Shown: positions 34,507 to 59,927 of the stretch, in pieces | Layout of the letters: each line of letters opens with the position of its first letter | How positions within the stretch are numbered: position 1 is the first letter of the stretch | NCBI GenBank assembly: GCA_018466975.1 | Contig: CM031557.1 | Coordinates: forward strand, 1,488,001 to 1,552,000 | From: Sparassis latifolia | Taxonomy: Eukaryota > Basidiomycota > Agaricomycetes > Polyporales > Sparassidaceae | Direction of reading: 5' to 3' | Length of the DNA: 64,000 nt | Notes under the pieces: model-generated | Told to the model about the DNA's origin: nothing | The model's database searches: none | What the model saw: only the letters and a program-made list of their open reading frames with translations | Position numbers and translations under genes: made by a program

Positions 34507-34514
34507 AGTGCCTC
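34507..34514. repeat. Left target-site duplication of the fold-back element (AGTGCCTC)
   Basis: AGTGCCTC lies immediately before the element. The matching copy is at 47500-47507, after the LTR element that was inserted at the right end. Confidence 0.75.
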
Positions 34515-34597
34515 ACACCTTTCAGTCATGTTACCTGAACTGAACTCCCATTTACCCTGACATTGTCATGAACTGGACAGCCAGCGGATGTCGGCCC

Positions 34598-35710
34598 ATC
34601 GTCACCATGTTGACCTCTACCAGCAGTGGGCCCATATCTTTCATGTGTGGGATACCAGCAGTGGGCCCACTGCTAGTGTTCTTCTCCTAGTGCTCGGCCC
34701 ACTAGCAGGGCATATTACAGTGTTGTAACCGTTAAGCAATGGGCCCACCGCCACAGGTCAGAAGGTGGGCCGATGCCAGAGCATATTATTGCCATCAATG
34801 GGCCCACTGCCAGAGCATGTTACCACCATCAATGGGCCCACCGCCAAAGTGTGATCAATGAGCAGTGGGCCCACCGCCAAAGGTCGGAGTGTTGGCCAAC
34901 GCCAGAGCATGTTTCTCTGAGCAATGGGCCCACCGCCAGAGTATGATGAATGAGCAGTGGGCTCATCGCTAAGAGTGTAAGATGACCGATGGGTCCACCG
35001 CCAAAGGTTAGAGGTTGACGATTGCCAGAGCATGTTATCGCCAGCAATCGGCCCATCGCCAAAGCACCCTCAGTGAGGGTCTTACTGCAAGCACTCATGG
35101 GATAGGTCATCACCAGGACATGTTTCCGCCAGCAATTGGCCCACCGCCAAAGGTCAGAGGGTTGGCCATGGCCAGAGCATGTTTGTCTGAGCAATGGGCC
35201 CACTGCCAGAGTAGTCAAAGGTCAGAGTGTTGGCCATCACCAGAGCATGTTATCGCCATCAATGGGCCCACTGCGAAAGTATGATTAATGAGCAGTGAGC
35301 CCATCACCACGAGTGTAAGATGAAGGATGGGCTCACCGCCAAAGGTCAGAGGGTTGGCCATCACCAGAGCATGTTATCTCCACCAATAGGCCAATAGCCA
35401 GAGTACAATAGCTGAGCAGTGGGCCCATCTCCAAGAGTATCAAATAAAAGATGGGCCTACTGCCACAGGCCAGGGGGTAGACAATCACCAGGACATGTTT
35501 CTCTCAGCAATGGGCTCACTACCAATGTACAATGAATGAGCAGCGGGCCCACCACCATAGGGGTATGTCTAAGCAGTGGGCCCATCATCATGATGCTATT
35601 ATTTACCGATGGGCTCACCACCATAGGGGTACCTCTGAGCAGTGGGCCCACCAACATGATGTTATTAGTCAGTGATTGGTTTACCATCATAATGCTGGCA
35701 GTGCCTGCAC
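34598..35710. repeat. Outer minisatellite, left arm of fold-back element
   Basis: Irregular units of ~50-60 bp built on AGCAATGGGCCCACCGCCA, GGTCAGAGGGTTGGCCAT and CACCAGAGCATGTT. Units drift to the form ATGGGCTCACCACCATAGGG near 35560-35660. It is the inverse of the right-arm array. Confidence 0.85.
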
Positions 35711-35739
35711 TCAGCAATTCACCTAATCGCTAACCTGAC

Positions 35740-37200
35740 ACTACATCTCTGGTGAAGTTTTTACAACATGGAGTCCTGTCTGAAACTTATTGAAGCTATC
35801 GTATAGACTGCAGTGCCACCATTTTATGAGTTCCTGATATATGGCAAACCATGGCTTTACATTCTGGTGATGGCGAGACTCAATTTGCCAAAAAGTCGCC
35901 AACCTGGCTCTTCTTCTCTGGCGAAGTTATTAAACTTGAAGGTCAGTCTGAAACTTGCAGAAGAGGACTTATAAAGTGCAGTTCCACCATTCTATAAGTT
36001 CCTAGTATATGGCGAGCCATGGCTTTACATTCTGGTGATGGCGAGACTCAATTTGCCAAAAAGTCGCCAACCTGGCTCTCCTTCTCTGGCGAAGTTATTA
36101 AACTTGGAGGTCGGTCTGAAACTTGCAGAAGAGGACTTATAAAGTGCAGTGCCACCATTCTATAAGTTCCTAGTATATGGCGAGCCATGGCTTTACATTC
36201 TGGTGATGGCGAGACTCAATTTGCCAAAAAGTCGCCAATCTGGCTCTCCTTCTCTGGCGAAGTTATTAAACTTGGAGGTCAGTCTGAAACTTGCAGAAGA
36301 GGACTTATAAAGTGCAGTGCCACCATTCTATAAGTTCCTAGTATATGGCGAGCCATGGCTTTACATTCTGGTGATGGCGAGACTCAATTTGCCAAAAAGT
36401 CGCCAACCTGGCTCTTCTTCTCTGGCGAAGTTATTAAACTTGAAGGTCAGTCTGAAACTTGCAGAAGAAGACTTATAAAGTGCAGTGCCACCATTCTATA
36501 AGTTCCTAGTATATGGCGAGCCATGGCTTTACATTCTGGTGATGGCGAGACTCAATTTGCCAAAAAGTCGCCAACCTGGCTCTTCTTCTCTGGCGAAGTT
36601 ATTAAACTTGAAGGTCAGTCTGAAACTTGCAGAAGAGGACTTATAAAGTGCAGTTCCACCATTCTATAAGTTCCTAGTATATGGCGAGCCATGGCTTTAC
36701 ATTCTGGTGATGGCGAGACTCAATTTGCCAAAAAGTCGCCAACCTGGCTCTCCTTCTCTGGTGAAGTTTGTTAAACTTGGAGGACTGTCTGAAACTTGTA
36801 GCAGAGGATTTATAAAGTCAAATTTCATTATTTTATGAGTTTCTAGTATATGGCGAGCCATGGCTTTACATCCTGGTAATGGTGTGACTCGACTAGTAAA
36901 AAACTCGCCATCCTGGCTCTCCTTCTTTGGTGAAGTTTGTTAAACTTGGAGCACTGTCTGAAACTTATAGTAAGGGATTTATATAGTGAAGTGCCACCAT
37001 TCTATGAGTTCCTGGTATATGGCGAGCCATGGCCTCACATTCTGGTGAAGGTGAGACTCGACCAGTAAAAAACTCAGCAATCTGACTCTCCTTCTCTAGT
37101 AAAGTTTGTCAAACTTGGAGGACTGTCTGAGATTGATAGTAGCTGCGGTATCAAGTGAAGCACCATCATTGTTTGAGTTTCTTGTAGTTGGGAGCTATGG
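35740..37200 (+). repeat. Inner 168-bp satellite, left arm
   Basis: ATGGCTTTACATTCTGG recurs at 35851, 36019, 36187, 36355, 36523 and 36691, exactly 168 bp apart; more diverged units follow at about 36860 and 37029. Copies near the middle are nearly identical and decay towards the core. Confidence 0.95.
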
Positions 37201-38880
37201 CAAACCAATAAACACATTGTTAACCTGGCTCTTCTTCTCTGGTGAAGTTAGTCAGACTTGAAGCACTGTCTGGAATTTATAGTAGACATTTCATAATGTG
37301 AAGTGCCATCACTTTCTGAGTTCCTGATCAATGGTGAGCCACAGCTTCTTATCCTGATAATAGCTAGACCCAACCAGGAACAAAATGACCAATCTGGCAC
37401 TTGTTCTCTGGTAAAGGTTGTATAACCTGAAGCACAGTTTAAAAATTGCAGTAAATGTTATATCAAGTGGTGCCAGCATTTCGTGTGTTCCTTATAGATG
37501 GTGAGCTACAGTGAAAATGTAACTGGCAACCTGATGCTTCTTTTTTCACATACACTGATAAATTTCATATGATATGAAGTACTGACTATAAGTTGTAGCA
37601 GTGGCTATATACTGTGATGTCCTTTTATATGGACTTCTGGCTGATGTCAGGCTATGTTTGTACAAAGTGTGGATGCACTGAGATTCAATGCTGACAATCT
37701 GCTATTTATTATAAAGTGAAGTATCTAAGCCTTTCAAAACTTAGAGCAGCAGTTGCATTACTGTTCAATGTCAGTGTTGTATGACTTCGTAGTTGGTTGT
37801 GAGCCACATCTAATCATCCTAAATACACTCACAAGTTAGCATGCTAACTGGCTGTGATAATCTTATATATATATAACATGAAAGAGTGACTAAATCTTAT
37901 AACAGCAGTTGTATGCTCTAAATTAGAAGCCTTGCATTACTTCTTGAAGTTTAGCAAGATACACACAGCCATTCTAATGATCTGTGAACACTTTGAGAAG
38001 TTCAGCATACAACTTACCATTTCTCTGCATGATACTATGTGTAATAAAGTACAACACTTTATATGCGAGATATGAAGTTGTGGTTAGTTTTGATTGTAAT
38101 CACTTAGTGTTATGTGAAGAATTCAATATTGTCTACCTTTAATGAACTTCACGTGACTTGCTGAACTGGTCAAGGAATCACACTTTCCTTTTTAGTCTCT
38201 GAGTGCACATACATCTACATGAACGTAATGGCTCCTATATGTGTTTTCTTCTATACATTTGAGATTCTTCTTTAATACATTTTTCTATCTACATTAAATG
38301 ATGATGATTATATAGACCTTATATCACAGCTAGATAGATTCTTGACAAGCTTATAAGAAGTCTATAGAGCTTGGAGTAAAATATTGCTAACTCTTCTGAA
38401 GTGAACTTTGCTGTTTTTTAAGAAGTAAAGCTTGCCAATCACTTAACATTACAGTTGACTACATGTTGTCTTGAAAAAGATATATCTGTCATTTTCTAAT
38501 AAATATCTGGCATTTAGTTATCTGAGAAGCAAAACACACTTCATGAACATAAGTGTAGCTCTTTCCAAAGAGTTACACTTAATTGTTATTGAGAATTAAT
38601 ATCTATTAAGTCACAATATGATATTAGTACTCTAAGTTGCAGTTCATACTCCACAGTATATAACTTTGGCCATAAGTTTCAGATGATACTCCATTGCATA
38701 CAGACTTCATTACAGAAGCAGTGCCGGCTGGTCGTTTAGCATTTTTATGTGTGAAACTATGGCTGGCTATTAATCAGGAACTCATAACATGGTGGCCCTT
38801 CACTTTATACAACAGCTGTTATCAATTTCAGACAGTGCTTCAAGTTGAATTAACTTTACCAGAGAAGGACCACCAGGTTA
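37200..38880. other. Core of the fold-back element, no gene
   Basis: AT-rich, unique sequence with faint decayed satellite copies on both sides (as at 37250-37500 and 38700-38900). No transposase motif or long frame. Confidence 0.6.
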
Positions 38881-39694
38881 GTGAAGAATCACCAGATTAA
38901 GTTTAGCCATTGTCAGGATGTGAAGCCATGGCTCAACGTTTATCAGGAACTCATGAAATGGTGGTGCTTTACTTTATATACCAACTACTATGAATTCCAG
39001 ATATGCTCCAAGTTTTATGAACTTTGCCAAAAAAGGAGAGTCAAATTGCTGAGTTTTTTACTGGTTGAGTCTCACATTCACCAGAATGTGAGGCCATGGC
39101 TCTCCATATACCAGGAACTTATAGAATGGTGGCACTTCACTTTATAAATCCCCTACTACAAGTTTCAGACCGTGCTTCATGTTTAATGAACTTTGCCAGA
39201 GACAGAGAGGCAGGTTGGCGAGTGTTTACTGGTTGAGCCTCACCTTCACCAGAATGTGAAGCCATGGCTCTCCATATACCAGGAACTCATATAAATCCTC
39301 TTCTACAAGTTTCAGACAGACCTCCAAGTTTACCAAACTTCACCAGAGAAGGAGAGTCAGGTTGGCGACTTTTTGGCAAATTGAGTCTCGCCATCACCAG
39401 AATGTAAAGCCATGGCTCGCCATATACTAGGAACTTATAGAATGGTGGCACTGCACTTTATAAGTCCTCTTCTACAAGTTTCAGACAGACCTCCACAGTG
39501 ATGTCAGTTATGAAAGATAATCTTTTCCATCAATAAGTAGCAAATTTTCATGAGAATTGCTACTTTTAAGTAGACTTATTTGTAGGTGCATAGATTAACT
39601 CAGGATAATCTTAATATAATCTTCCAGATAATCTGAGGATAATCTGAGGATAATCTGAAGATTAGCAATAAAACACAATTTTAACTTTAACACC

Positions 39695-39785
39695 AGCCAG
39701 GATTGAACCCTGGACCTCAGGCCGATTTTATAGAATATAATTCTAAGTGACACTTTAGACCACTTGACCATTAGGCCATACATCA
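39695..39785 (-). other. tRNA-like segment (SINE head) in left arm of nested element
   Basis: Read on minus: A box TGGTCAAGTGG, then after ~50 nt B box GGTTCAATCC within CAGGGTTCAATCCTGG, a proper T-stem and loop. The anticodon region is enlarged and the ends do not pair, so it is not a functional tRNA gene. Confidence 0.6.
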
Positions 39786-40110
39786 TAACTATCTTATCTT
39801 AAATTAGACATATTTTTTTTGGAAAAGGCTTAGCCAAATTCTGTCTATTAGAAGAGAGTAAGTAAAAGGCACTTGACTTTTATCATAGATAGACAAGCCT
39901 TATAGACAAATAGTACTCTGCATCTTATTATAGTCTTGTCCTACAGCTTACAGTTTTTGTAAACTATCATGCAGTACTTAATGTTTGTCTATAAGTCTTG
40001 TCTTTCTATGATAAAAGTCAAATGTCTTTTACTTACTCTCTTCTAATAAACAGAATTTGGCTAAGTCTTTTCCAAAAAAAATATGTCTAATTTAAGATAA
40101 GATAGTTGTG

Positions 40111-40203
40111 ATGTATGGCCTAATGGTCAAGTGGTCTAAAGTGTCACTTAGAATTATATTGTATAAAATCAACCTGAGGTTCAGGGTTCAATCCTGGCTA
40201 GTG
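40111..40203 (+). other. tRNA-like segment in right arm of nested element
   Basis: Same A and B boxes as the left-arm copy, in opposite orientation, with small differences. An RNA polymerase III start could occur from either arm, facing the element centre on one side only; this is inference. Confidence 0.55.
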
Positions 40204-41539
40204 TCAAAGTTAAAATTGTATTTTGTTGCTAATCTTCAGATTATCTTCAGATTATTCGGAGGATTATATTAAGATTATTCTAAGATTATCTGAAAGATTA
40301 TCCTGAGTTAATCTATGCACCTACAAATAAGTCTACTTAAAAGTAGCAATTCTCATGAAAATTTGCTACTTATTGATGGAAAAGATTATCTTTCATAACT
40401 GACAAAGATGACCTCCAAGTTTAACAAACTTCGCCAGAGAAGGAGAGTCAGGTTGGCGACTTTTTGGCAAATTGAGTCTCGTCATCACCAGAATGTAAAG
40501 CCATGGCTCGCCATATACCCAGGAAGTCTAAAATGGTGGCGCTGTACTTTATAAATTCTCTTCTCCAAGTTTCAGACAGTGCCCTAAGTTTAACAAACTT
40601 TGCCAAAGAAGAAGAGCCAGGATGGTGCATTTTTTACTAGTTGAGTCACACCATTACCAGGATGTAAAGCCATGGCTCGCCATATACTAGGAACTCATAG
40701 AATGGTGGCACTGCACTTTATAAGTCCTCTTCTACAAGTTTCAGAGTCCTCCAAGTTTAATAAACTTCACCAAAGAAGGAAAGCCAGGATGGCAAGTTTT
40801 TTACTAGTTGAGTCACACCATTACCAGGATGTAAAGTCACAGCTCGCCATATACTAGGAACTTATAAAATGATGGAATTTAACTTCATGAACCCTCTGCT
40901 ACAAGTTTCAGACAGACCTCCAAGTTTAACAAACTTTGCCAGAGAAGGAGAGCCAGGTTGGCGACTTTTTGGCAAATTGAGTCTCGCCATCACTAGAATG
41001 TAAAGCCATGGCTCACCATATACTAGGAACTTATAGAATGGTGACACTGCACTTTATAGGTCCTCTTCTGCAAGTTTCAGACCAACCTCCCAGTTTAATA
41101 ACTTCGCCAGAGAAGGAGAGCCAGGTTGGCGACTTTTTGGCAAATTGAGTCTCGCCATCACCAGAATGTAAAGCCATGGCTCGCCATATACTAGGAACTT
41201 ATAGAATGGTGGCACTGCACTTTATAAGTCCTCTTTTACAAGTTTCAGAGTCCTCCAAGTTTAATAAACTTCACCAAAGAAGGAAAGCCAGGATGGCGAG
41301 TTTTTTACTAGTTGAGTCACACCATTACCAGGATGTAAAGTCACAGCTTGCCATATACTAGGAACTTATAGAATGGTGGCACTGCACTTTATAAGTCCTC
41401 TTCTACAAGTTTCAGACAGACCTCCAAGTTTAACAAACTTCGCCAGAGAAGGAGAGCCAGGTTGGCGACTTTTTGGCAAATTGAGTCTCGCCATCACCAG
41501 CATGTAAAGCCATGGCTCACCATATACCTAGGAAGTCTA

Positions 41540-42720
41540 AACTAGTGGCACTGGGCCCATCACTCAGTACTACCACGGTGACAGTGGGTCGATGGCTGTA
41601 TAATAGCAGCGTGGCAGTTGGCCGATGGCTCAGAAATACACCTATGGTTGTGGGCCCATCGCTCAGAACACTACCTACGGCGGTGGGCCAATGGCTGTAT
41701 AATAGCAGTGTTCGTGGTCAGTCGATGGCTCAGAAATACACCTATGGTGGTGGGCCCATCACTCAGAACGGCTCCTATGGCGGTGGGCTAATGGCTGTAT
41801 AATAGCCTCGTGGCGGTGGGCCGATCGCTCAGAACACTACCTATGGCGGTGGGCCGATTGCTCAGAACACTACCTATGGCAGTGGGCCCATCGCTCAGAA
41901 TACTACCTATGGCGGTGGGCCGATGGCTGTATAATAGCCCCGTGGCGGTGGGCCGATCGCTCAGAAATATACCTATGGCGGTGGGCCAATGGCTCAGAAC
42001 ACTACCTATGGCAGTGAGCCCATCGCTCAGAACACTGCCTATGACAGTGGGCCCATCACTCAGAACACTACCTATGGCGGTGGACCGATGGCTGTATAAT
42101 AGCCCCCTGGCAGTGGGCCGATCGCTCAGAAATAGACCTCTGGCGGTGGGCCGATGGCTGTATAATAGCCCCGTGGCGGTCAGCCCATCGCTCAGTACTA
42201 CCACGGTGGGTGGCGGTGGGCCGATCGCTCAGAACACTACCTATGATGGAGGGCCCATCGCTCAGAACACTACCTATGGCGGTGGGCTGATGGCTGTATA
42301 ATAGCCCCATGGCGGTGGGCCGATGGCTCAGAAATATACCTATGGCGGTGGGCCGATGGCTCAGAACACTACCTATGGCAGTGGGCTCATCGCTCAGAAC
42401 ACTACCTATGATGGTGGGCCCATCACTCAGAACACTACCTATGGTGGTGGGCCGATGGCTGTATAATAGCCCTCTGGCAGTGGGCCGATCACTCAGAAAT
42501 ATACCTATGGCGGTGGGCCGATGGCTGTATAATAGCCCCGTGGCGGTCAGCCGATCGCTCAGAAATACACCTATGGCGGTGGGCCCATCGCTCAGAACTA
42601 TCACCGTGGCGGTGGGCCCATGCCTGTATAATAGTAGCATCATGGCGGTGGGCCGATCGCTCAGAAATACTCCTATGGCGGTGGACCCATCGCTCCAGCC
42701 TTCCCTTCGTCGCCATGAGC
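41540..42720. repeat. Outer minisatellite, right arm, 33-bp based units
   Basis: Units of 33 bp such as CGCTCAGAACACTACCTATG followed by GCGGTGGGCCGAT alternate with forms carrying GGCTGTATAATAGCCCC. Because 33 is a multiple of three, long frames stay open on both strands (41810-42301 plus, 42309-42797 plus, 42820-42068 minus); these are not genes. Confidence 0.9.
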
Positions 42721-42830
42721 CGATCGCTGACAGCTCCTTACACAGACCAATGGGCCGACGTCCGCTGGCAGTCCAGTTCATGACAATGTCAGGGTAAATG
42801 GGAGTCCAGTTCACAAACATGACTGAATGG

Positions 42831-42835
42831 GCTGA
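42831..42835. repeat. Left target-site duplication of the LTR element (GCTGA)
   Basis: GCTGA precedes the 5' LTR and follows the 3' LTR at 47496-47500. It overlaps the last bases of the fold-back element and the first base of that element's own duplication. Confidence 0.85.
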
Positions 42836-43654
42836 TGTTACAAAGCTCCTCTCTGAGGAACGCGCGGACGACTTCCGCCTTTACCTTTACCGATCATGTG
42901 ACAATGATGTCACAGAGCCTAGACTGACCATGTGACAATGACGTCACCGACCACATGACCATGATGTCATCATGGTCATCGCCCTTATCTATCCGGCACG
43001 GAACTACCTGATCATCTGACGATATGCGCCTTGTGCTCAAGGCATGTTTACCTCATGTGCGAGATCCAGACCTAGGACGCACTTCCTATCACACACACGA
43101 CAAAGGCATGTTTGCCTCACCTTTGCCTTACCCTTACGATACAGATACCGAACCTCATGGGCATGGCCCTAGACCCTGACACATGCGCTAGACGCACGAC
43201 AACCTCGCTGCTGCCTTGTCTTTGCAGCACGACCTATTCCCCATATGGACAGATTGTCTCTCACGCAGAGTCATGACTGACTCAGCATTCTCACGACCGT
43301 GGGACAGGTGTACGAACCCTGTGCCCTTGTATTGATACCGATGGACCAATCGTAGTTCTAGTATTACAGGTAGACAGACGCCTGTACTTGTATATAAGAC
43401 CGACAGGACAAGCTGGAGTCCCCATCTTGTCCTGGTTACACATCAACCAGTTTTACCATCTACATCTGTGCGATAGATCGACCTTGGTCCGCAGACAGCG
43501 GCCAAGCGTTCATAAGACAGCTCCACTGGGCCGACCTCTGGTCATCGCTATGACTGGAGGTCGGACCCCTCACGATTGACTTGAGCCCTTGCGAAGGCCT
43601 AGTCACTGACGACGACGAACCGGATGTACGGTGGCACGACTGGCCCCCGTGACA
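42836..43654 (+). repeat. 5' LTR of the non-autonomous element
   Basis: Begins TGTTACAAAGCTCC and ends GCCCCCGTGACA. The U3 part has a cluster of ATF/CREB-like sites: GATGTCAC, TGACGTCA (42939-42946) and GATGTCAT, followed by the TATA box at 43391. Confidence 0.9.
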
Positions 43655-43754
43655 TTAGGACAAGATGATATTTCTTTGGCTCAAGCTCCTATGCTTTAGA
43701 GCCTGACGACCCCGACTTCGACCAGTTCGCAGACAGCGACTGTGTCCTTTGACC

Positions 43755-43897
43755 ATTCGACCGAACAAGGCGACGGATACCTTGCACCTCCTGAGCAGAC
43801 AGCTCATTCGACCGAACAAGGCGACGGATACCTTGCACCTCCTGAGCAGACAGCTCATCCGACCGAACAAGGCGACGGTTACCTTGCACTTGATTCC
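43755..43897. repeat. 51-bp tandem repeat, 3 copies, in the LTR element interior
   Basis: CCGAACAAGGCGACGG occurs at 43761, 43812 and 43863, 51 bp apart. The period of 51 keeps frames open on both strands. Confidence 0.9.
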
Positions 43898-46678
43898 TCG
43901 TCTTGTCCGAATTGACATTAGGACGACACTACCCGACCTCGACTCGTCCATGTTCGCAGACAGCGTAACATTAGGACACCTGTGACGACAGAGATGGAGA
44001 TACCGCGATTGACACTCCATTCTCTCGATATCCAACATTGGAACGACGAAGAAGACCCTTGTCTGGTCATTCCTAGGTGAGACCAGATTTTCGAAAGACA
44101 ATTGATTGGCACCTTGTTCGAGACGAACTCTCAAGAGTTTACCCTTCATTGGGTGACTCTCAGGGGTCGAATCCCCTCATGCGAGGAAAGCTACGACATG
44201 TGTAATAATCAAAGACATGTACGAGCCGCATGTGACTGCGAATCGGAAAGGTTTGGCCACCGTAGAATTAGTACCGATTCTATGGACCGTGATGAACTGA
44301 GGACGGTGCGCAGCCTTTGACGAAGGACTTAAGTCGCACACTTAATGATCATAGCTGACAACACCGAGTGCGGCGAGATACCCACGGTGCAGATTGATCC
44401 CGGGAACGGCAACCCGTATAAACCGTAGACTCTTAATTGAGTCCGATCTGATGACCATTTGATGATTGTGATCCCTGAATGGGAGCTCGGACTGAGCAAG
44501 TGGACACTCGCTCTCCACTATAAACAAACGATAGATCTTGGCTGAGAACACCCTGCATGGCGAGTTACCTGGGGTGCAGAAAGATTGACAACTCGATGCC
44601 ATTACGAGTTGATGACCATGGAATGTTTGAAGATACCGCGAGTTGACACTTCAAAACCATTCCCTGTCGAAGAGGCTCTCGACATTAAAGAAACCGACAA
44701 TCCGAAGAAGATCCTGATGTAACAAAAGGATCTGAACGACGACTGTCGATCACAGCTCTCGACGATAAAGAAACTGAACCTGGATGAACCTTGAATGACA
44801 TAGAAAAAGGTTCTGACAGAAGACGGATCCTGGCTCTCCGTATAAACCAATGATCCATACCGAACCCAGGCCGAAGGTTTGACGAGGCGACGATTAGCCT
44901 GATGATTGAACTTAACAAGAGATTACATCACCGAAGAACGACTTGGAGTTAACAGTACACGACACTCCAATCCCCGATAACGACACCTGATATTAGGAAA
45001 TCCCTAATGGTCCTTTGTTGACCACCACGATGATGACTCGAGCATGATCAGACAGACATGACTCATTCGATGATGTCTGGAAGTCCCAGACGGTCCTTTG
45101 TTGACCACCACGATGACGACACCCGATGCTAGATGCCTAAATAGGTCTAGCAACCCTCGACGATCAGACAGATCTCGATGGGCGAAACTACTATGAACGA
45201 CAGCCTTCGATATGGCACTTTTGATGACATGCGCGGGGTAGTTCCCCATGGATAGAAAGGATACTGGGTCACGGCCGATCCTTGGATTTGATGTAGACTG
45301 TTGTCTCATCATCTGGAAGAATAAACTTGACAAATAGACGAAATTCGATATACGACACAGCGACGAATAGGGCATCCATGGAATATGGATGGAGGTAGTC
45401 GATTCAATTCGATACCAACACACGACAAGACCCGACATGAAATATTCGATGAAGTATCATGCTAGGCCGGGGTAGTTCAAACCTAGGCCGGGGTACTTTA
45501 ATGATGAAGACATGAAACCGGACATGAAACGTGAATGGGAGCTATCGCTTACCATTGGATATTTGATCTGAACCTTTGCTGAGAACACCTAGTAGGGCGA
45601 GATACCCGGGGTGCAGAAAGGTTATCAGAAGGATGAACGACCTTGATGAAAGCCAAAAGGCAGGATTATGGCATTCATGGAACGTGAAGGAAGATAACCG
45701 ACAAAGTGCGGTATCAACCCAAGATAAGGCCACAATTATCCCGATGATTAGAAACATCGAAGACAAGAAACCTGAATGGGAGCTATCGCTCACCAGAAGA
45801 CGATTAACCATGCTGGCATTGACGATGACCAGCCAACCACGATACATGTCCGCAATGACTTGAAACTAGAAGACGATACTTGTCCGCAATGACTTAAAAC
45901 TAGAAGACGATATTTGTCCGCAATGACTCGAAACTAGAAGACCCTTGCTGCCCACCCTCTTTTTCCCTTTACGATTTGTTACCTGTTTTGATCGGTTTCA
46001 GATCCAGGGTATCTGGTTTTTTTGAATGGGAGCTGATAGGGGATAGTAGGCGAGGATGCATATCCGAGCCAAAGGAATGAGCCCGAGTGCCCGGGTGACG
46101 AGGAACGAGTGGAATCGAGGAGTGACGAGTGGAATCGAGGAACGACAAGAGTAATTGAGGACGAGGAACCCTCCCACAAGGGCAAATTTTTTCCCCCCCT
46201 CCTCCCTTCCACCACACTCTCATTCCATCTTGCGAATTTTTGAAGACATCACTACACCATGAGCCCTCCTGATTTTTAGGCCGGGGTAGTAGTAGGGAAG
46301 AATGGGCAACGCGAGTTGACCATTCACGTCTTAAGCACAAAGAAACAAGACTAATGGAAGACGATGAACATAGCTGAACAGCTTATGAGAAGAAGACGAA
46401 CGATGAACATAGCTGAATAGCTTATGAGAAGAAGACGAACAGAAGACTTGCAGTTGGAGCGAGCAGTCCTAAAGGGATGCGAGCGACAAGCAAAACGAAG
46501 TTTGCGAAGCTGATTAACACCCAGTTCAATTTTTTCATTTTCCGCCTCTGATTTACCCAGAATCATGCGACGACATGACACGATGAACGACGACACATGG
46601 AATTTCTCCATTCCATTTTCTCTACCGACTTTCCTGACGACTTCAATCCAGGGAATTGAAGACCTGAATGGGAGCTGA
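43898..46678. other. Interior of the LTR element, repeats but no genes
   Basis: A 34-bp unit (TGTCCGCAATGACTTGAAAC) occurs three times at 45840-45942; a ~40-bp unit (GATGAACATAGCTGA) twice at 46360-46440; GGTCCTTTGTTGACCACCAC twice at 45009 and 45093; and CTGAGAACACC..GGGGTGCAGAAAG blocks at 44545 and 45580. No retroviral protein motif was found. Confidence 0.7.
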
Positions 46679-47495
46679 TGTTACAAAGCTCCTCTCTGAG
46701 GAACGCGCGGACGACTTCCGCCTTTACCTTTACCGATCATGTGACAATGATGTCACAGAGCCTAGACTGACCATGTGACAATGACGTCACCGACCACATG
46801 ACCATGATGTCATCATGGTCATCGCCCTTATCTATCCGGCACGGAACTACCTGATCATCTGACGATATGTGCCTTGTGCTCAAGGCATGTTTACCTCATG
46901 TGCGAGATCCAGACCTAGGACGCACTTCCTATCACACACACGACAAAGGCATGTTTGCCTCACCTTTGCCTTACCCTTACGATACAGATACCGAACCTCA
47001 TGGGCATGGCCTAGACCTGACACATGCGCTAGACGCACGACAACCTCGCTGCTGCCTTGTCTTTGCAGCACGACCTATTCCCCATATGGACAGATTGTCT
47101 CTCACGCAGAGTCATGACTGACTCAGCATTCTCACGACCGTGGGACAGGTGTACGAACCCTGTGCCCTTGTATTGATACCGATGGACCAATCGTAGTTCT
47201 AGTATTACAGGTAGACAGACGCCTGTACTTGTATATAAGACCGACAGGACAAGCTGGAGTCCCCATCTTGTCCTGGTTACACATCAACCAGTTTTACCAT
47301 CTACATCTGTGCGATAGATCGACCTTGGTCCGCAGACAGCGGCCAAGCGTTCATAAGACAGCTCCACTGGGCCGACCTCTGGTCATCGCTATGACTGGAG
47401 GTCGGACCCCTCACGATTGACTTGAGCCCTTGCGAAGGCCTAGTCACTGACGACGACGAACCGGATGTACGGTGGCACGACTGGCCCCCGTGACA
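46679..47495 (+). repeat. 3' LTR of the non-autonomous element
   Basis: Same sequence as the 5' LTR, followed by GCTGA at 47496-47500. Confidence 0.9.
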
Positions 47496-47499
47496 GCTG

Positions 47500-47507
47500 A
47501 GTGCCTC
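47500..47507. repeat. Right target-site duplication of the fold-back element (AGTGCCTC)
   Basis: Matches 34507-34514 exactly. Its first A is shared with the LTR element's duplication. Confidence 0.75.
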
Positions 47508-50500
47508 TATGTGTGAAAACGACTTTTTAATACAAATTTGTATGCATGAGATGCACCTAGTCCTGGGTTAGGTTTAGGGTTTAACTACAAACTTTGTAGT
47601 GCCTGTTCTTACTCTACTACATTTTGCATACAGTCGGTCTTTCAAAGTAATTGTAGTGAAAACCAACACGACTTGCACAAATAGTGATCAATAGAAGTGC
47701 CACAGCAGTCACAGAGGACCAATGCATCATAGTCAGTGAAATTATAGAAGCACATACTAATTTCAACACAGAAAAAGCAGTATTATTGAAATCTGTGAAG
47801 GAAATGGAGCATAATGCTCTCTTAATTCAAGTAAATCTGAGTAAAACTGGCTGAGATATCTCATTTTGAATTAGAATGCTCAGTGTGAAGTGCAGACAAA
47901 TTGGATAAATGCCAGAAAATTTTGTGAATGACTCTAAAATGCACATAAACATGTTAGATTGGGTGTCTTAATTTTTACATGCAGTGCACATTGAAGAAAC
48001 AAGTAGAAGTGAGAGAAAACTAAGAAAATGGATTGTAGCACTCCAGCATGTGATCCTGATGTTTGAAGAGTAACACCGTCAGATTCAGCTTGAAAATCCG
48101 GTCAGAATGGCTATCGGGTTTATTCAAATCTGAGCAAAATTGAGTGAACTACAAGCCTGGCAAGTTTGGTTAGAAGTGTGGTAACAAGTGCTTGGTCACG
48201 TGACCTGCAGGGCATGTGATGTGCACATGCTTGTGGCTGAAGACAAACATGCAGAATAAAATGCAAAACAATCGCAGAAATACAAGAAAAATTATGGTAT
48301 GGCCCTTTAATGACATTAGGCTTGTAGAAGTAACTAGACAATGTTGTAAGCCATTGTAAAGTCCTTACAAGTCCATGCTAGATGGCATATTAGAATATTG
48401 TAAGGCCTTACAAACCAATACTAGAGGGTGTAATAGAATTCAACAAATGGTGAATAAGGCATTGAAGCAGGGTTACTAAACAGCACTAGACATACTAGGA
48501 GTCAATATAACACTTTGTAGGCTATTGTAAGGCCTTTATCAACCAGTGGTCAGTGGTCTACTAGACTATTGTAAGCATCTTACAAAGTAACACTAGATGA
48601 CATATCTAACTATTGTCGGGTTATTGTAAACATGTTCACTAGGACTTACAAGGGATTACTAGACACTATTGAAGGTTACTGAAGATTTTTACAAAGTGAT
48701 GCCCGGTAACATTTCTGACTATTGTAAGCTTATTACAAACTGATACTATAGGATATATTAGGGGCCAGTATCATAGGGTGTTGTTGACTTGCTGAACATT
48801 ACTAGACAATATACTAAGAGTCAGTAGGCGACTTTGTAGACTATTTAATAGTATGGCCCTTATTAACCCACACAACTTATCAATGTACCTGTGGGACGTT
48901 GTAGGACACTTATTAAACTGCATACTAGGAGTTAGTGGAGGAGTCAGTAGGCGACTTTGTAGACTAGTTTGTCTAATGTCACACTCACCACCTGAGAGGC
49001 AGGGCTGAATGAGAAAGGAGGCAGAAGCCATGAGATCCACTTTTGTAATAAATTTTTGATCCCCTTGTCTGTTTCTCAAGTCTTCCATCCTTGCTGAGTC
49101 ACAAAATTATGCTCAATCATCCACATGACATGAGAATCCCATGCTAGAAACTGTGTTTCCCGACCTATGATTAGAAGGCACATCCTTGTCCAACTTCTCC
49201 TTCACCATATCACTGTTCAGTGCATCATAAAAGGGGCAGGACAAGGCCGAGTGCAGTATTTGGTGCCTCATCTTTATCCCCAATCTAGCTGCAATATACC
49301 TCGCCAAATAGGGGAAAGCTTTTACTGGCGAAGGTGCTAGGTGGAGCATTGCCTTTATCCTGTCTCTTCTTAAATTTTTCATAATCAGTATGTATGTTAT
49401 TCATGAAGGCAGTAGTGATAGCTGCATGTGCCTGTAATGATTGCATAGGGCTGATGTTTCATCAGCATGATAAACTTCTAAGAAGAGCTTATGGCCTTAC
49501 CCGTGCTCCACCATATAACGAATCAGCTCCTTCACTGCCATTTTCAGTAAACACTCTTCAAGAACCTCGTGACTGTCCAGAAACTTGATGCAGTCTTCGA
49601 GTTTGAAGTGGTTATATGTGAGAGCACAGCCATTAAATGAATGGAATTTACAGTAGCAGCATATATGACACCTTTGACCCATGATAGCAGCTGGCCAGAC
49701 AGTGAACCAGTTGTTACTGTGCATAAGTTAAATTCTTCCTGAGGATCTTGTCATTTGCTTCACAAAGCAAATAACTCATGTTTCTGCGAGCTCATGCTTT
49801 GTGATTTGAATCATCCTCTCCAGGGATGATACCAAGTGTATTGATGGCAAGCTTCCCACTATAGGTTTTATTTAGCAGGCCATTGAATGAGGCTAGGAGT
49901 TCATTCATGCGAGCATTGCTGACTGCAACACTTGCGACTTTGTGGTGGTGCACAAACAGTGCTGTGATCAAATTAAGGCTATGAAGGAGGTATGACTCAC
50001 CTTTCAAGTAGCCAGTGACCCTGAGGCTGAGTTCTTTCAAATTGAACTCTCGATTTAGGCCTGTTTTTCATTCAAGTGCACCCAGAAGAGTAGTTAGTGC
50101 TTGGAACTCCTCAGTCAACTCACTGGCCCTAACATTTTTCAGAGACTCTGCATCGAATGTGAATTCCGAAGCAAGAGGATCCTCCTGATGGTGTTGCATG
50201 TTAGAGAGTGCTGAGCCTTATTGCAATAATGTCAATATTGTGCTAGAATCATCATCAGCACACTCACATGTGAGATATACAAATCAAGAATGATGAACTA
50301 ACAGCAGTTGAGAAGCAGCATATAGAACTAAGTTGATCCTGTTTGTCTGTGTTGTCTCTGAAACGCCTTGCAAGCCCTTTTCCATATGGCATAATAACTA
50401 ATAATCGCAAGTGAATGGCAATTTTTAGATTCATGCAAGAACAGCAAACTGGGTGGACATCGCCGAGATAGGTACCACCAGCATTTTCCAGCATGCACCT

Positions 50501-50700
50501 CAGCAACTGTGGCTAGCATTGTCCCGCATTAAGCTAGCTTGAAGCACACCTCAGTGTGCCAGGCTTAAGCTAACTCAAGCGGACCATGAGTTAGCTTGAG
50601 GTCCTCCTGACTGCATGTCCAAGAATTATTTGAGCAGGAGGGGTTTCACATCAATTGGTGAACTGAGTAGCAGTTGATGATCAGGTGCAATGTCACTTTT
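47508..50700. other. Degenerate repeat DNA with traces of minus-strand coding sequence
   Basis: From 48340 to 48990 a diverged repeat of TTGTAAGGCCTTACAAACC and CATACTAGGAGTCAGTAGG type is scattered with ~60-bp spacing. On the minus strand at 50520-49090, several frames separated by stops read like protein (NLKELSLRVTGYLKGESYLL at about 50045, YLGDVHPVCCSCMNLK at about 50470) but I recognise no family. AAGCTAACTCA and TGAGTTAGCTT form a small hairpin near 50560-50600. Confidence 0.4.
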
Positions 50701-50744
50701 GCGCTGTGAGAGAATTAAATGGATAGCTGATCATTGTTTCTTAT

Positions 50745-50905
50745 TAGTCAATTCATGTCATTGAGGGCTGGGAGTTCCACAACATGTTGCTGTATGTTGG
50801 TAGCATGATCATTGATGATGATGACATACCATGTTGGACAAAACTCACCAATCTCATCATGCAACACTATAAAGGAGAGCTGAAGAATCCACATACAGTG
50901 AAGAC
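50745..50905 (+). pseudogene. hAT transposase remnant
   Basis: The plus frame reads GWEFHNMLLYVGSMIIDDDD then IPCWTKLTNLIMQHYKGELK. The DDDIPHRTKLTELI-like block is typical of basidiomycete hAT-family transposases, just before the part that carries the first catalytic residue. The following sequence does not continue the family: the catalytic core is missing, and what follows (to 51250) is an unrelated Ser/Lys-rich frame. It is too short for activity. Confidence 0.5.
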
Positions 50906-51247
50906 AATGAAGATGGAGCTGAGAAAGAAGAAAATGGGGTCAAGTGCAATGGTAATTACAACTATCCATCTGGATCTGAGGACGATGATTACTCATTCTC
51001 AGAGACCAAAACTTCTCAGACATCAGGTCAGAAAGTGAAAGATATGTTTGCAGCAATGCCTCAGAGGCTGCCTTGGGCAAGGCAGCTGGGCACGGTTGTG
51101 GCTCATATACTGGCAACTTTCACCAGAAAAAGGGCTAAGAAAGTAGTGAGAGCTACTTCTCGATGAGCCAAGAAACCTGAGCCCAGATTCTATGATTCAC
51201 CCAGGGGATACATTCTAGATGACTGTTCCTGCAACCTCATTAATCCT

Positions 51248-53595
51248 GTGGCTGATTGAGATGGTGGCAAAAATTTCTGCATGGTCATGATATATCTTTG
51301 ACTCAAATTCATCTCTGAGGTCAGATTCCTGATGTGCTGTAAGGTCGTGATTTTCTTTGCTCTTCTTTGGGCTTATTTATTGTGTTGTCATGTAACCCTC
51401 ATCAGTGTTGACACTTGGGGAAAGAACTATGAAGAAAGTCCTTGATCATATCTCTGCGACCTTTGGCATTTGTCAGAAGCAGAATGAGGCTGATATTTAC
51501 AATATGAGCTCTCATACAGCCCACATTCTTTAACACCACCAATTGAGTGCTACTTCTGCACCCAATGTCATGCTTGGTACTAGTGCGAGAATGAGTTTTC
51601 AAAACACTATGCCTGTGTATGTCCTTTGATGGCAAAATTTCAGGAACGGCCCCTTCGCAGGTGGATGATTACTCTCCACAAAGGTAGTGGTCCTTCTGGC
51701 TCTATTGAAGGCAACATCAGTCATTTTCTTCACTTGCCTCTTTGTGAGGATTAGTCTCCTGAAGCAGAGGAAGAGGTCAGGGTGAACCTCCTTCCATCTG
51801 TTGTCTTGAACACACCAATTCTCTTAGAGGTTGCTGCAGTGACTGGATCAAGACCGTTAGTATTTGCACAATGCAAACAGGTTTGCATCAAAGTCCAGCA
51901 AGCATATTTGAGCTGCAATTGCTCATAGTGATGGATGGGTAAACTTCTTCTTCTAACAGATTCATGATACTTACAGTGGAGTCACTGCTTACCAAAAATT
52001 GAAAAAGCGGACAACATTAAAATATTCATCTCTCACTGCTGCAAATGGTAGCTTTTATGCTGAGGGTGAAAACAATATATGCTACAGGACACAAGCAGCA
52101 TGATCTTGGGAAGTTTCAACTCCCCATGACACCTGTGCAGATTGAACCTCACAACAAGCTGTATGACCTTGTTATCAGAATAGAAGAATCAATCTTGGAT
52201 ATGCAGATTGCTCCTGGAGAGGCATACAGTACATCTTTTATTCAATGGTGCTTCATGTCACTCAAATTGCTTCTGGAGAGGCATACAGTCACCTCATCTG
52301 TGCTTGTTGGAGTCAGAAAGATGGTGAGAATGATGAGATGGATTCATCTGAGGATTCAGATTCAGATTCATATGACATTATCCTAAACAGTGAAACTTGG
52401 CAATGAAAGTCATGAAGCTGATGGTTCATCATGTGAGGAGCCTGTGAATATTACTATTATTGGTGGACCTTCACCATTGTCAGAAGAAGGCGGTAACATG
52501 ATGCAAACAGGTAATTTCAACCAATATGATATTTTGAGATTTGAGCATTTCTGCCATCACTGGGAATGTTTTTACTCATCAGAGCATTTTTATGTGTCAA
52601 ACATCTGGAGGAAGAGGCACAATGGATAAAGCTGTTGGTTGGAGAAGCTCGAGAAATTTTTACATCTTATAATCACATGAAGAGTATGTGGCTCGAAGCT
52701 AATGAAAGTACACATTGCTACACTGATGTTATACATTTCACATGGTCTGAAGGGAGGGCATACCTAATTAGCTAGGTGCAGGTAGCAGATATAAGCTCCC
52801 TCAGCTTCTGCATATGTATTGTCTGCAATTTGTGCCAGGGACTGTCCACAACTAGCAGTGGCTCCACTGTAAGTATCATGAATCTGTTAGAAGAAGGAGT
52901 TTACATATCCATCACTATGAGCAATTGCAGCTCGAATATGCTTGCTGGACTTTGATGCAAATCTGTTTGCATAGTGCAAATACTAACGGTCTTGATTCAG
53001 TCACTGCAGCAACCTCTAAGGGAATTGGTGGGTTCAAGACAACAGATGGAAGGAGGTTCACCCAGACCTCTTCCTCTGCTTCAGAAGACTAATCCTCACA
53101 AAGAGGCAAGTGAAGAAAATGACTGATGTTGCCTTCAATAGAGCCAGAAGGACCACTACCTTTGTGGAGAGTAACCATCCGCCTGCGAAGGGGCCGTTCC
53201 TGAAATTTTGCCATCAAAAGACATACACAGGCATAGTGTTTTGAAAACTCATTCTCGCACTAGTACCAAGCGTGACATTGGGTGCAGAAGTAGCACTCAA
53301 TTGGTGGTGTTAAAGATTGTGAGCTGTATGAGAGCTCATGTTGTAAATATCAGCCTCATTCTGCTTTTGACAAATGCTAAAGGTCGCAGAGATATGATTG
53401 AGGACTTTCTTCATAGTTCTTTCCCCAAGTGTTAACACTGATGAGGGTTACATGACAACACAATAAATAAGCCCAAAGAAGAGCAAAGAAAATCACGACC
53501 TTACAGCACATCAGGAATCTGACCGCAGAGATGAATTTGAGTCAAAGATATATCATGACCATGCAGAAATTTTTGCCATCATCCCGATCAGCCAC
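51248..53595. repeat. Long inverted repeat, two 742-bp arms around an 864-bp loop
   Basis: 51248-51989 and 52854-53595 are reverse complements with about 4-6% mismatch by eye, and are equal in length. Each arm has a matching open frame beginning MPSKDIHRHSVLKTHSRTST (51635-51402 minus; 53208-53435 plus), ending FPKC. The loop at 51990-52853 is unique and holds weak frames (52045-52386) without known motifs. No clear target duplication is seen at the outer edges. Confidence 0.9.
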
Positions 53596-54810
53596 AAACT
53601 ACTGTAAGGTGCTTACAAACTGGTATTAGGTGTCATACTAGAAATCTGATGATATAGTAGACTATTATATATATAACACTTTCAGACATTTTTTTGTATG
53701 ATGAAAATGATTTGAGTCATGTAAGACTCAACTCATTTTTGCTGTCAAATAGGTGCCTATTGGAGCAAACATGTAGAAAAAAGTCGGAAAAATTTATAAA
53801 GATATTAGGAAAATTGTAACATGACTATATAATCTAAAATTCTATGAAACTTCTATGAGATAGTTACCTTGGAGTAGATACATGACATTGTAGGCTACTA
53901 AAGGAATCTTTGTAAAATAAATATTAATGACTTTTTAGTCATATTTTTATATAGATTTTATAAAAGGACATAGTAATATCATTTTAAAGTCATTTTCAGC
54001 CAATTCTTTTAGAATGCATAGTAGTCACTTTTTGGTAACATTTTTATACACTTTTTGCAAAACAACATAGTAATATCGTTTTGAAGCCATTTTTCAACCG
54101 AGTCTTTTAGACTGCATACTAACTTTCTTTCTTCAGCTTAATGAGGTCATTCATCATGACAATAATGGAACACAGGATGTGGAGGATATACATATTTCTG
54201 TAAGTATTTGTTAACATGCGAGCTTCATTGACACTAAGAAAAAAAGGCTTACACCACATTGCCCTTGATGTTAGTGTAAATCTGCATGGCCTTCTCACTG
54301 TAATAGATCTCATTTATAGATGCAATGCCAGCATCAAGATGAGCTGGAATTTGCAGTGATGAATTGTTGTTGGAGAATATAGGCAGAAACTTGATTGAGT
54401 CAAGGCTGAACTACACATTGGATGGAGAATTTTCAGAAGAGTTTTGGACTCTAACAGTAGACCATAGTTCTAATGCCACATTTAGAAAGATTTGTGCATT
54501 CATTAGAGCTCCTAGAGTCTGACCAAGTAACAGTGGATTAGTGAACTTATCAACAAAGTCATGCAGTTGTGGTGCAGTCAATGAAGTCAGGATCTTGAGT
54601 AGTCAGTTGAACTGTGTTAAGCTGCTTGATTGGGAGATAATTGTAGATAACCTTTAGAGGTAATACTCTGCATCTGTTAGGTGATTTGCAAAGAGTTAAA
54701 AAAATTTACAACTAAGATTATAGATATTAGTTATAGTAAGCTGAATTTGGGAGTTGGCAGCAAGTTGAAAGAATGTAAAGAAGAATGAAGGAAATGTTAT
54801 TGTGAATATA
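53596..54810. other. AT-rich DNA with a diverged ~97-bp tandem duplication
   Basis: 53929-54025 and 54026-54121 are related copies sharing CATAGTAATATC and TCTTTTAGA..GCATA. The start (53596-53670) resembles the repeat at 48340-48990 (GTAAGGTGCTTACAAACTGG). A minus frame at 54313-54119 is unassigned. Confidence 0.5.
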
Positions 54811-55032
54811 TCAACAAAACTTACCTTTTTCTTAGAGAGCCATTTAGACTTTTGGATCTTACAGCTCTTATTTGAGGCAATAAATGTTTAAATAAGTGTT
54901 AATAAGTCTAATTTTAAACACTCATATAATATGCATTAGGTCCCTTTTTGATCTTATACCCTTAAATAAGGATCATAAGTCCATTTAAGTTAGTTAAGTA
55001 CCATTTTAAGTAAAAGTTAAGTTTTGCTGATG
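54811..55032 (-). mobile_element. MITE, same family as 30746
   Basis: Begins TCAACAAAACTTACC and ends AAAGTTAAGTTTTGCTGATG; TA lies on both sides. The inside carries ACTTAAATAAGG-like and AGTCTAATTTTAAACACTC family blocks. Confidence 0.7.
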
Positions 55033-55398
55033 TATATGGTGAGTGGAAAGGCATCCAATGAATGTCTAATAGATCCAGAACAAGACAGAGTGAAGCTCAG
55101 GCTCAGTGCAATAGCAAACAAGTGACAGTATTAGTGCTCACCTACAATAAGACAGAGTGAAGATACTGTAGGTCAGTAAGGAGATAAAACTTAGTAAGAA
55201 AAAGTAATCACCTTAGTTTCAGTGCAATAGCAAACAAGTGACTAGATTAATGTTGACCTAGACTGAGACAGACCAAAGCTATTGTAAGTCATAACAAGAT
55301 AAAACTAAGTTAAAAAAGTATTCACCTTAGTCCTGATGCAATAGCAAATCAGTGACTGAGGTGCATCACCTAAATGTTCGCTCCGCCAGCAGTAATTA

Positions 55399-55756
55399 CA
55401 TCAGGAAAACCCAACATTTTCTTAGGGACTTATTTGGACTTTTCATTCTAACAACTCTTATTTAAGACCATAAGTGTTCAAATAAGTTCAATTTCAGAGA
55501 ATACTGTCCCATCATGACTAATTCAGCCAACATTTACCTTTTTCAAACAGTCTTAAAAATCCATAATATGTCCAAAAATTCAGAAACAATTATTGGTGAG
55601 GTCTCTGAAAATTACTGTGACATGTGACTGGCCTGATTAGTTGTGATTGCACAGTATGACTTAGGTCCTTTTTATTCTTATATTCTTAAATAATGATCAT
55701 AAGTCCATTTAAGTCAGTTAAGTGTCCTCTTAAGAAAAAGTGGGGTTTTTCTGATG
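55399..55756 (+). mobile_element. MITE, same family, with extra internal sequence
   Basis: Begins CATCAGGAAAACCCAACATT and ends AAAGTGGGGTTTTTCTGATG, with TA on both sides (target duplication of the mariner/Tc1 type). It is 358 bp long because about 130 bp of unrelated sequence lies in the middle. Confidence 0.75.
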
Positions 55757-56276
55757 TACGTGATTACAAAAGGAGCATGGTGGCACTAGCTGCCACATCT
55801 GTATCTTGCGCTTCTTTTCTAAATTAATCTTAATCTCATATGACTTTGACTTTACCACTACTCTATAACCACTACCTACCTTCAGGACTTACTAGCTCCA
55901 GCCTAATGGACGATAATTTCTTCTGCACTGTGTACTCAGAAACAAATGCTGAATATCTCAATTTTTATCTTTGTAGAGAGCAAGATGTGATAGCATGAGT
56001 GCCATATAAGGATGTGCTGTTCACTGTAGAACTGATTGATCGCTGGCTCCATCGCCCAGTCAAGTTGATTTTGTCATACTTGCTCAAGAATGCATCTTCT
56101 AATTATTGCCCTGTTCCTGACAATGTATGAAATGGTGCATTTATTTATCAGAACTGCAAGATCACCCTTACCACGGCCCATCTGCTGCAGACTGGGCCGC
56201 AAAAGTGCTCACAGGTGTGACATGACTGCATAGTGGTGTCAAATATGAACGATAATGAACAAGAGTTCCAAATCAC
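55757..56276. other. No gene seen
   Basis: AT-rich, with stops in all frames and only short protein-like pieces near 56100-56220. Confidence 0.45.
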
Positions 56277-57216
56277 TGTCACACACTAATAGGGTTTGGC
56301 TTGTGGACATAGAATATGTAACCAGATTACCAGAAGTCAAACAAGTAGTATAGAAGTCAAAGAAGACAGTATAGAAGCCAAAAAAGACTGAAACTTCTCA
56401 AAGCAGCAAGTAATTTGCCGAATTTGGTAGTAGATGCCTATTTGGGCAATTATTACATAATCAAGCCCAAACTGCTCACTTTCAAGTATCAAGCAGACAG
56501 ATTCTAGGCTTCCACAGCCTAGCCCAGGTCTATTCAAGTAACTCACAGATAGTACTAGCCATGTTGGGTTAGACATAGAGAGAATTCTGTCATTGGACAA
56601 GGAAATGAGTCAAAGATAAAACACTTCATTATATCTATTTCAGCATACCATTTGTCGCAGGTTCACCTAGATGACTCACCGTGGGAATGACACAAAGGGC
56701 TAAAGAGGAGACCATCAAATATGTTAAATTTAGTGGATGATCAAGTTGGGAGAGAGTTTAGGCTATTAGACAGTGCAATTTGTCAAGAGTCCTGGACAAA
56801 TATGAGTCAGCATGACTCAAAATGACTAGAAATAACTAGGACTAATAGTACTTAGTAAGCTACATAATCAGGCTTTATAAGAGGGTTTGTGATCATATAT
56901 AAAGGCCCCCCTCCCCCCTTTTTACTGTTACTGCTTTACTCCCAGTCACCACAGTTCAGTACACTGCAGAGCTACTGCAGAGCTGTACTGTTATCAGTTA
57001 TCAGTTCAGTTTACAGTTCAGTTAAATTTGATCAGCTTGGAGCCACTAGTGTTTGATTATAAAGAAGACTTGACTCAACAGTATTAAAGTTTGACTCTCA
57101 GCTTGATTTTACTTGATTCTGGTCTCAGTGCTTGGTTAATTTGAATATCAATCATCTGGCAATTAAAGACACAGTTTAATCTAGCTAACCCTCCACTATC
57201 CTCTTAACAGACAAGG
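56277..57216 (+). mobile_element. Ty3/gypsy LTR (plus orientation), likely solo
   Basis: Begins TGTCACACACTAATAGGG and matches the LTR at 62666-61710 in inverse orientation at roughly 85-90% by eye, up to CTCTTAACAGACAAGGT near 57216. A TATA box TATATAAA lies at 56896-56903. Compared with the other LTR, many differences are G-to-A or C-to-T. No gag or pol follows on the right, so it is not the 5' LTR of an intact element. The right end is uncertain: AATCAC before the start recurs at 57230-57235. Confidence 0.8.
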
Positions 57217-59738: not shown

Positions 59739-59927
59739 AAGAAGTAAATGAGAGTGAAAGATTAAGGAACAGTGATTGAGTTAGACTTTACAGTTGACAG
59801 AAAAGATGCAAGATAGAAGTCTTGACACCGTCCTGTCTTCAAGTTCAACATTGCGCAAATAGCTATCAATATATGCACATGCAGCACCACAACAATTCAC
59901 ATTATGGTATGCCTATACATTTGAGGA

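Follow-up and report, generated by a model that had tools for sequence, protein, structure and literature searches.

A satellite-armed fold-back element of Sparassis latifolia is very probably a non-autonomous derivative of a Kyakuja-type transposon

We analysed a stretch of 64,000 nucleotides from the basidiomycete Sparassis latifolia (C6:1488001-1552000 of a 41.4-Mb genome in 22 contigs; hereafter the window), which harbours a fold-back transposon whose long inverted arms are built of tandem repeats. In all probability, this element derives from a ~20-kb transposon of the Kyakuja type (KDZ superfamily) that resides in the same genome, and represents a non-autonomous fold-back form of it. The interpretation draws on sequence comparisons: the two elements share their ends and a 7-bp target duplication, and the fold-back occurs at many sites (with one empty site), carries a core common to its copies and present in two orientations and, in orientation A, shows mixing between its arms.

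A ~20-kb KDZ element has the same ends

Fourteen of the first 20 copies of the fold-back's left end continue into one shared element of more than 10 kb, and copies of this element that are flanked by a duplication are 19.3-24.6 kb long. The copy scanned for domains (C9:391555-410964, 19,410 bp), which has the same ends as the fold-back, contains matches to a KDZ transposase (PF18758, 1.6e-31), the CxC2 cluster (PF18803, 8.4e-27) and a TET/JBP dioxygenase (PF12851, 4.2e-20) in separate open frames; in seven further frames scanned, no family exceeded its cut-off. The best solved relative of its TET fragment (PDB, 8.4e-26) is CcTet, which comes from Coprinopsis (PMC12730594). Together with genes that look interrupted by introns, the CcTet-like gene is what a basidiomycete genome would be expected to show. 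Ten copies compared over ~6.5 kb are 95.5-98.7% alike (45 pairs).

The KDZ domain and the CxC2 cluster, found together in the one copy scanned, assign the partner to the KDZ superfamily. According to the portions of Kojima (2025, PMC12730594) used here, Kyakuja elements have 7-bp duplications and 5'-CA..TG-3' termini, while Zisupton and Dileera elements have 8-bp duplications. As our family shows 7-bp duplications and CA..TG termini (CACACC..GGGCTG), it agrees with Kyakuja in these two respects, and the ~20-kb element is, to judge from these sequences, the likely autonomous partner of the fold-back. The latter belongs to the fold-back class by its long inverted tandem-repeat arms, its target duplication and its many copies.

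Copies across the genome carry 7-bp target duplications

A first reading of the window, made from the letters alone (the sequence-only reading), had recognized the inverted ends, which we find to be 91.5% alike over 82 bp (34518-34599 versus 42750-42830), and had placed the element at 34515-42834. The right limit stands, and the left one moves to 34514: CACACC opens all 40 left ends read, and the first base is C in 57 of 58 left-end pattern matches (T in one). A first search with the ends, in which 40 of 125 candidates were scored, was repeated with patterns that tolerated as many as 3 mismatches; it recovered 58 left and 65 right ends, against 0 matches for the control pattern read backward. 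The central spacer matched 33 times, near full length in 28, and satellite clusters numbered 25 among the matches listed (at least 202, grouped by eye), 24 of them adjoining a spacer. These 28 spacer copies and the arm structure bear out the proposal of a non-autonomous fold-back with satellite arms. For Kyakuja, one transposase exon of the ~20-kb element gave 35 matches, of which 33 were used after two fragments (C8:724995 and C8:726169) had been dropped.

The first set of 40 left and 41 right ends yielded 30 nearest pairs, and at least 6 of 7 flanking bases matched in 17 of these, as compared to 8 of 1591 unrelated left-right pairings. Across the 17 matching pairs, the flanks agreed at position -8 in one, at positions -7 to -1 in 15-17 and at position 0 in three: the target duplication of the family is 7 bp. 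Duplications of at least 6/7 bases flank 18 of the 23 fold-backs with both flanks read (14 exact, four at 6/7) and 13 of 25 such Kyakuja copies (12 exact). The remaining fold-back spacers comprise three with an unread flank (two of which were assigned one 29.6-kb pair) and two unbracketed ones, and the remaining Kyakuja copies three with an unread flank and five without a bracketing pair. Since two pairs of fold-backs share their flanks (C10:2838182 with C11:3042893, and C8:1962096 with C8:1511390), the 18 duplicated copies represent 16 independent sites. Searching the genome for other copies, as the sequence-only reading had suggested, thus recovered the same ends with differing duplications. 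An empty site was found as well: the fold-back at the left end L012 sits in Kyakuja sequence that runs uninterrupted at L009, and the 7-bp stretch present once in L009 occurs twice, with one mismatch, around the L012 insert.

As to the copies with shared flanks, the fold-backs at C8:1504721-1511390 and C8:1962096-1968757 have identical flanks in opposite orientation, probably reflecting an inverted segmental duplication on C8. The loci C10:2829356-2844661 and C11:3036251-3051688 hold one and the same insertion of a fold-back in Kyakuja on different contigs; they share the outer left flank, and a segmental duplication is again the probable cause.

The sequence-only reading had assigned the element to a non-autonomous, hAT-related fold-back with an 8-bp duplication. 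The string AGTGCCTC is indeed present on both sides of the element, the right end begins CAG, and the hAT dimerisation domain (PF05699) is matched 27 times in the genome. However, the eighth base of the string is the element's own first C and the duplication is 7 bp family-wide, none of the 27 PF05699 matches falls inside the 47 bracketed elements (25 fold-back, 22 Kyakuja), and the partner with the same ends carries a KDZ transposase. Because rust hAT families with 7-bp duplications are described (PMC12730594), the duplication length by itself would not exclude hAT; the transposase of the partner does, and we give a hAT origin practically no credence. We note that AGTGCCTC is found three times when the + strand of the window is searched (at 33789, 34507 and 47500), so the string alone proves little; the duplication in the window was accepted because of its flanking position and the family-wide 7-bp pattern.

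Two repeat layers of different origin

Tandem Repeats Finder (TRF) and nhmmer confirmed two layers of repeats that had been noticed in the sequence-only reading, an outer minisatellite at both ends and an inner 168-bp satellite inverted in the two arms. The outer portions of the element (Table 1) match the 19.4-kb Kyakuja copy only inside its two end regions, and the TRF rows for the GGGCCCA minisatellite lie between 34735 and 35657 and at 41612-42695. When motifs were counted as GGCCCAY plus RTGGGCC (palindromic sites counting in both, expectations taken from shuffling), positions 1-1200 of the Kyakuja copy held 18+15 and its last 1.2 kb 7+12, where ~0.2 of each was expected, as opposed to 2+0 in the 17-kb middle, where ~3 of each was expected. 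In the element of the window, the motifs number 17+14 at one end and 8+23 at the other, and the 5.8-kb core lacks them altogether. As the motifs crowd the Kyakuja ends and are rare in between, the outer minisatellite is a trait of Kyakuja termini. The proposed amplification of satellites inside the inverted arms is consequently possible for the inner layer only, the outer one having been inherited from the Kyakuja ends.

A derivation of the 168-bp satellite from Kyakuja sequence was considered and rejected: the satellite model found no match in the 19.4-kb copy, and a scan of 15 Kyakuja stretches (the left 10 kb of each of 14 copies, plus L033) revealed neither satellite nor spacer.

From the shared ends, the fold-back would have kept ~1.2 kb of each Kyakuja terminus, that is, the inverted ends with their subterminal GGGCCCA arrays, and the gene-bearing interior would have been replaced by inverted 168-bp satellite arrays flanking a 1.24-kb spacer devoid of long open frames; the listing of open reading frames has none of at least 150 aa within 35727-41554. 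The tandem repeats of Galileo hold transposase binding sites (PMC3688188), and by analogy with the published description the GGGCCCA repeats are putative binding sites that the Kyakuja transposase may recognize. The same transposase would then probably cut and move the fold-back in trans.

In another scenario, possible but rather unlikely in our estimate, the element has two nested origins: a satellite-spacer-satellite module that formerly existed on its own, as a fold-back or some other repeat, would have landed in a Kyakuja derivative and been carried along by it from then on. Nothing matching the module was found in those Kyakuja stretches that were examined, and its spacer differs in CpG content (observed/expected 0.17 versus 0.71-0.90 in Kyakuja interior stretches), but Kyakuja ends within 32 kb bracket 26 of the 28 spacers (two by one shared pair), and no free-standing module with a duplication of its own was seen; among the matches listed, one satellite cluster (C10:2940361-2941152) lacks both spacer and ends.

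With regard to the CpG content, 444 of the 563 C-to-T type differences among the ten Kyakuja copies fall in CpG (~26% expected; observed/expected of the stretch 0.90), and the corresponding counts are 9 of 36 in five orientation-A spacers (3% expected) and 1 of 13 in three orientation-B spacers. Elsewhere in the window, the observed/expected ratio is 0.93 in the first 30 kb and 0.36 in 48000-64000. Since the latter region and an insert at 39496-40409 resembling a miniature inverted-repeat transposable element (MITE), which is nearly CpG-free (0.09), are low too, CpG depletion is not special to the fold-back. The pattern suggests CpG methylation of old non-coding DNA in this fungus, as far as can be read from base composition; the figures do not demonstrate that TET protects anything.

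The core occurs in two orientations and arm identity fades outward in orientation A

We compared the arms of nine fold-backs that were read fully or largely (186 satellite units). In these copies, satellite unit matches number 9-16 per left arm and 7-13 per right arm (the 13 of the window including a split unit), and the spacer between the arms measures 1239-1242 bp. Within an orientation, the three innermost units of different copies have similarities of 0.965-0.987 when taken from the same arm and of 0.68-0.74 when taken from opposite arms. This holds for orientation A (six copies; ~0.98 on the same arm versus 0.68-0.71 across) as well as for orientation B (three copies; 0.97-0.99 versus 0.70-0.74). 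Starting at the sixth unit and moving outward, arm identity is gone in orientation A, the values for same versus across arms being 0.89/0.87, 0.87/0.88 and 0.91/0.90. In B copies, the spacer is reversed, and the innermost units resemble those on the opposite arm of A (0.92-0.94) rather than those on the same arm (0.69-0.72), indicating that the core was inverted along with its nearest units. Such an inversion is what recombination between the arms would produce, and this recombination could both invert the core and mix the middle satellite units.

Genome-wide, 14 of 26 bracketed copies are in orientation A and 12 in B. When spacers were grouped by identity to that of the window (A, 96-100%; B, 91-95%), orientation agreed with sequence group in all 18 copies having duplications, so that most of the difference in orientation traces to one old flip. 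In a spacer tree (14 of the 28), A and B are separated with support of 100/97; two changes are required, on account of C10:4361354, a copy that is orientation-discordant and unbracketed. Discordant copies without duplications are also found at C12:2122896 (A, 94%) and C5:1955953 (B, 96%); the left flank of the former matches the right flank of the latter at 6 of 7 bases, as would be seen had the two copies undergone an exchange, although by our estimate the unpaired ends would yield about one such match by chance. The three discordant copies could be ectopic recombinants. A core that switches orientation frequently was also considered and found only partly supported, the orientations almost coinciding with the two sequence groups.

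Exchanged duplications suggest possible rearrangement between copies

When the 55 left flanks available (of 58 ends) were compared with the 54 right ones (of 65 ends), all 7 bases agreed in 31 cases; 26 of these pair the two sides of one element, and 5 link different elements. Two of the five cross-element matches reflect the duplicated C8 locus. Between two Kyakuja copies in opposite orientation (C10:495586-515388 and C10:538596-560016), GGGTGAC and GATGGCA are reciprocally exchanged, and the fifth match joins C7:1758602 and C19:40252. Ends without a partner of their own (24 left, 23 right) showed three exact matches, as compared to a permutation mean of 0.06 and a maximum of 2 in 2000 rounds; most partnerless ends are not explained by exchanged duplications. 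Inversions caused by Galileo were diagnosed from duplications exchanged between opposite copies (as reported in PMC2775673), and by this precedent the reciprocal exchange on C10 likely reflects an inversion of the 23 kb between the two Kyakuja elements, although misassembly through the 20-kb repeats would give the same pattern. The C7/C19 match possibly represents a translocation or a misjoin.

This raises the question of whether arms or copies at large were made by misassembled repeats. The ends are common to ~20-kb repeats that are ~97% alike and can be misjoined, and the C7/C19 match involves a contig of 226 kb. Against this stand the fourteen exact and four 6/7 fold-back duplications at 16 independent sites as well as the precise empty site, and we regard an assembly artefact as highly improbable.

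Several observations weigh against the derivation from Kyakuja or its corollaries: (i) the domain evidence comes from a single 19.4-kb copy, as matches in open frames; (ii) the ends form 82-bp inverted repeats (91.5%), whereas two Laccaria Kyakuja families are reported to have no terminal inverted repeats (in the portions of PMC12730594 used here), a lack that we do not take as defining Kyakuja, other KDZ elements having such repeats; (iii) among copies with both flanks read, matching duplications are missing from 5 fold-backs (of 23) and 12 Kyakuja copies (of 25); (iv) outer and middle units of orientation B keep some arm identity (0.89-0.92 on the same arm versus 0.82-0.87 across), the mixing between arms seen in A being weaker in B; and (v) repeated flipping of the core rests on the three discordant copies, which have no clean duplications. 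As to the third point, at least 2 of the 12 duplication-less Kyakuja copies look mis-bracketed (one spans 29.9 kb, one is in opposite orientation), and exchange, misassembly or mis-bracketing may account for duplications being missing more often from Kyakuja than from fold-backs.

A broader picture, which we put forward tentatively and hold to be short of probable, is that of a Galileo-like system in a fungus, from a superfamily unrelated to that of Galileo: a Kyakuja that bears TET, accompanied by a satellite-armed fold-back parasite, whose arms would recombine, flipping the core, exchanging duplications and inverting or translocating segments, while CpG decay would strip the fold-back more than its partner.

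Relation to known systems

The likenesses and differences given here refer to the portions of the cited papers that were available. The family resembles Kyakuja of Agaricomycetes (PMC12730594) in its 7-bp duplications, CA..TG termini, KDZ transposase and CcTET-related TET/JBP gene, and differs from the two Laccaria families in its imperfect inverted repeats, GGGCCCA subterminal arrays and fold-back derivative. Akin to Galileo of Drosophila (PMC2775673, PMC3688188), the fold-back has long inverted arms with internal repeats, 7-bp duplications and a middle segment in either orientation, and exchanged duplications between opposite copies mark inversion breakpoints in Galileo; Galileo, however, belongs to the P/THAP transposase superfamily (KDZ/CxC2 here) and to another kingdom. 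Tetris of Drosophila virilis (PMC4079207) is likewise a non-autonomous fold-back, with ~220-bp tandem repeats in its arms, where satellite arrays arise. In contrast to our family, Tetris has 8-10-bp duplications, a suggested Mutator affiliation and no autonomous partner found; here, a partner was found and the two repeat layers differ in origin. KDZ1-3 of Cryptococcus neoformans (PMC12810828) are KDZ transposons with inverted repeats whose movement was shown, but they have repeats of 139-241 bp, duplications of 4-8 bp, CxC1 instead of CxC2 and lengths of about 9-11 kb.

Fold-backs have mostly been described from the Mutator superfamily, Galileo (P) being an exception (PMC4079207, as far as its available text goes). 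Literature searches, whose coverage mostly left out subscription papers, found no KDZ, Kyakuja or basidiomycete fold-back, and the terms 'foldback' and 'fold-back' are absent from the main text of the KDZ1-3 paper (PMC12810828) in the form available. While some fold-backs have no known partner, the likely autonomous partner and both repeat layers are visible here in one genome, in a superfamily for which those searches gave no earlier fold-back. Why fold-backs gain repeats thereby becomes testable, the outer layer resembling transposase binding sites and the inner one a recombination substrate. If the assembly is right, the exchanged target duplications are also evidence that transposons have rearranged a fungal genome.

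Features of the window element and its insertions

The coordinates are collected in Table 1. The element proper measures ~7.4 kb once a nested insert, which the sequence-only reading did not mention, is subtracted.

Table 1. Coordinates of the fold-back element, its parts and associated insertions in the window.
Feature	Position	Strand	Remarks
Whole fold-back element	34514..42834	+	8321 bp including nested 914-bp insert; ends fixed by other copies
Left target site duplication copy	34507..34513	+	7 bp, AGTGCCT
Right target site duplication copy	47500..47506	+	7 bp, AGTGCCT; displaced by LTR-like element
Left terminal inverted repeat	34514..34599	+	Starts CACACC; 91.5% over 82 bp versus right end
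Left Kyakuja-derived end with GGGCCCA minisatellite	34514..35726	+	Element positions 1-1163 match 19.4-kb Kyakuja copy; motif counts
Left inner arm, 168-bp satellite	35727..37508	+	11 unit matches; nhmmer, TRF
Central spacer	37509..38749	+	1241 bp; CpG observed/expected 0.17; 28 near-full genome copies
Right inner arm, inverted 168-bp satellite	38750..41554	-	13 unit matches (nested insert splits one unit)
Right Kyakuja-derived end with minisatellite	41545..42834	-	Outermost bases ..GGGCTG; positions 7032-8321 match Kyakuja copy
Nested MITE-like insert	39496..40409	.	914 bp; 8-bp duplication GACCTCCA; not counted as fold-back proper; absent from right arms of other copies read
LTR-retrotransposon-like insertion	42836..47495	.	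LTRs 42836-43654 and about 46679-47495; duplication GCTGA

Judged from the length of its duplication only, the nested insert in the right arm is possibly a hAT-like element. The later insertion that had been proposed to precede the second flank was confirmed as an element resembling a long terminal repeat (LTR) retrotransposon, identified from its LTR structure alone; its LTRs are ~99% alike, its duplication is 5 bp long, and it separates the right end of the fold-back from the second flank. The bases preceding its 3' LTR (CTGAATGGGAGCTGA, 46660-46680) resemble the right end of the fold-back at the insertion target (CTGAATGGGCTGA, 42815-42835), a likeness that may be due to chance, target homology or template switching.

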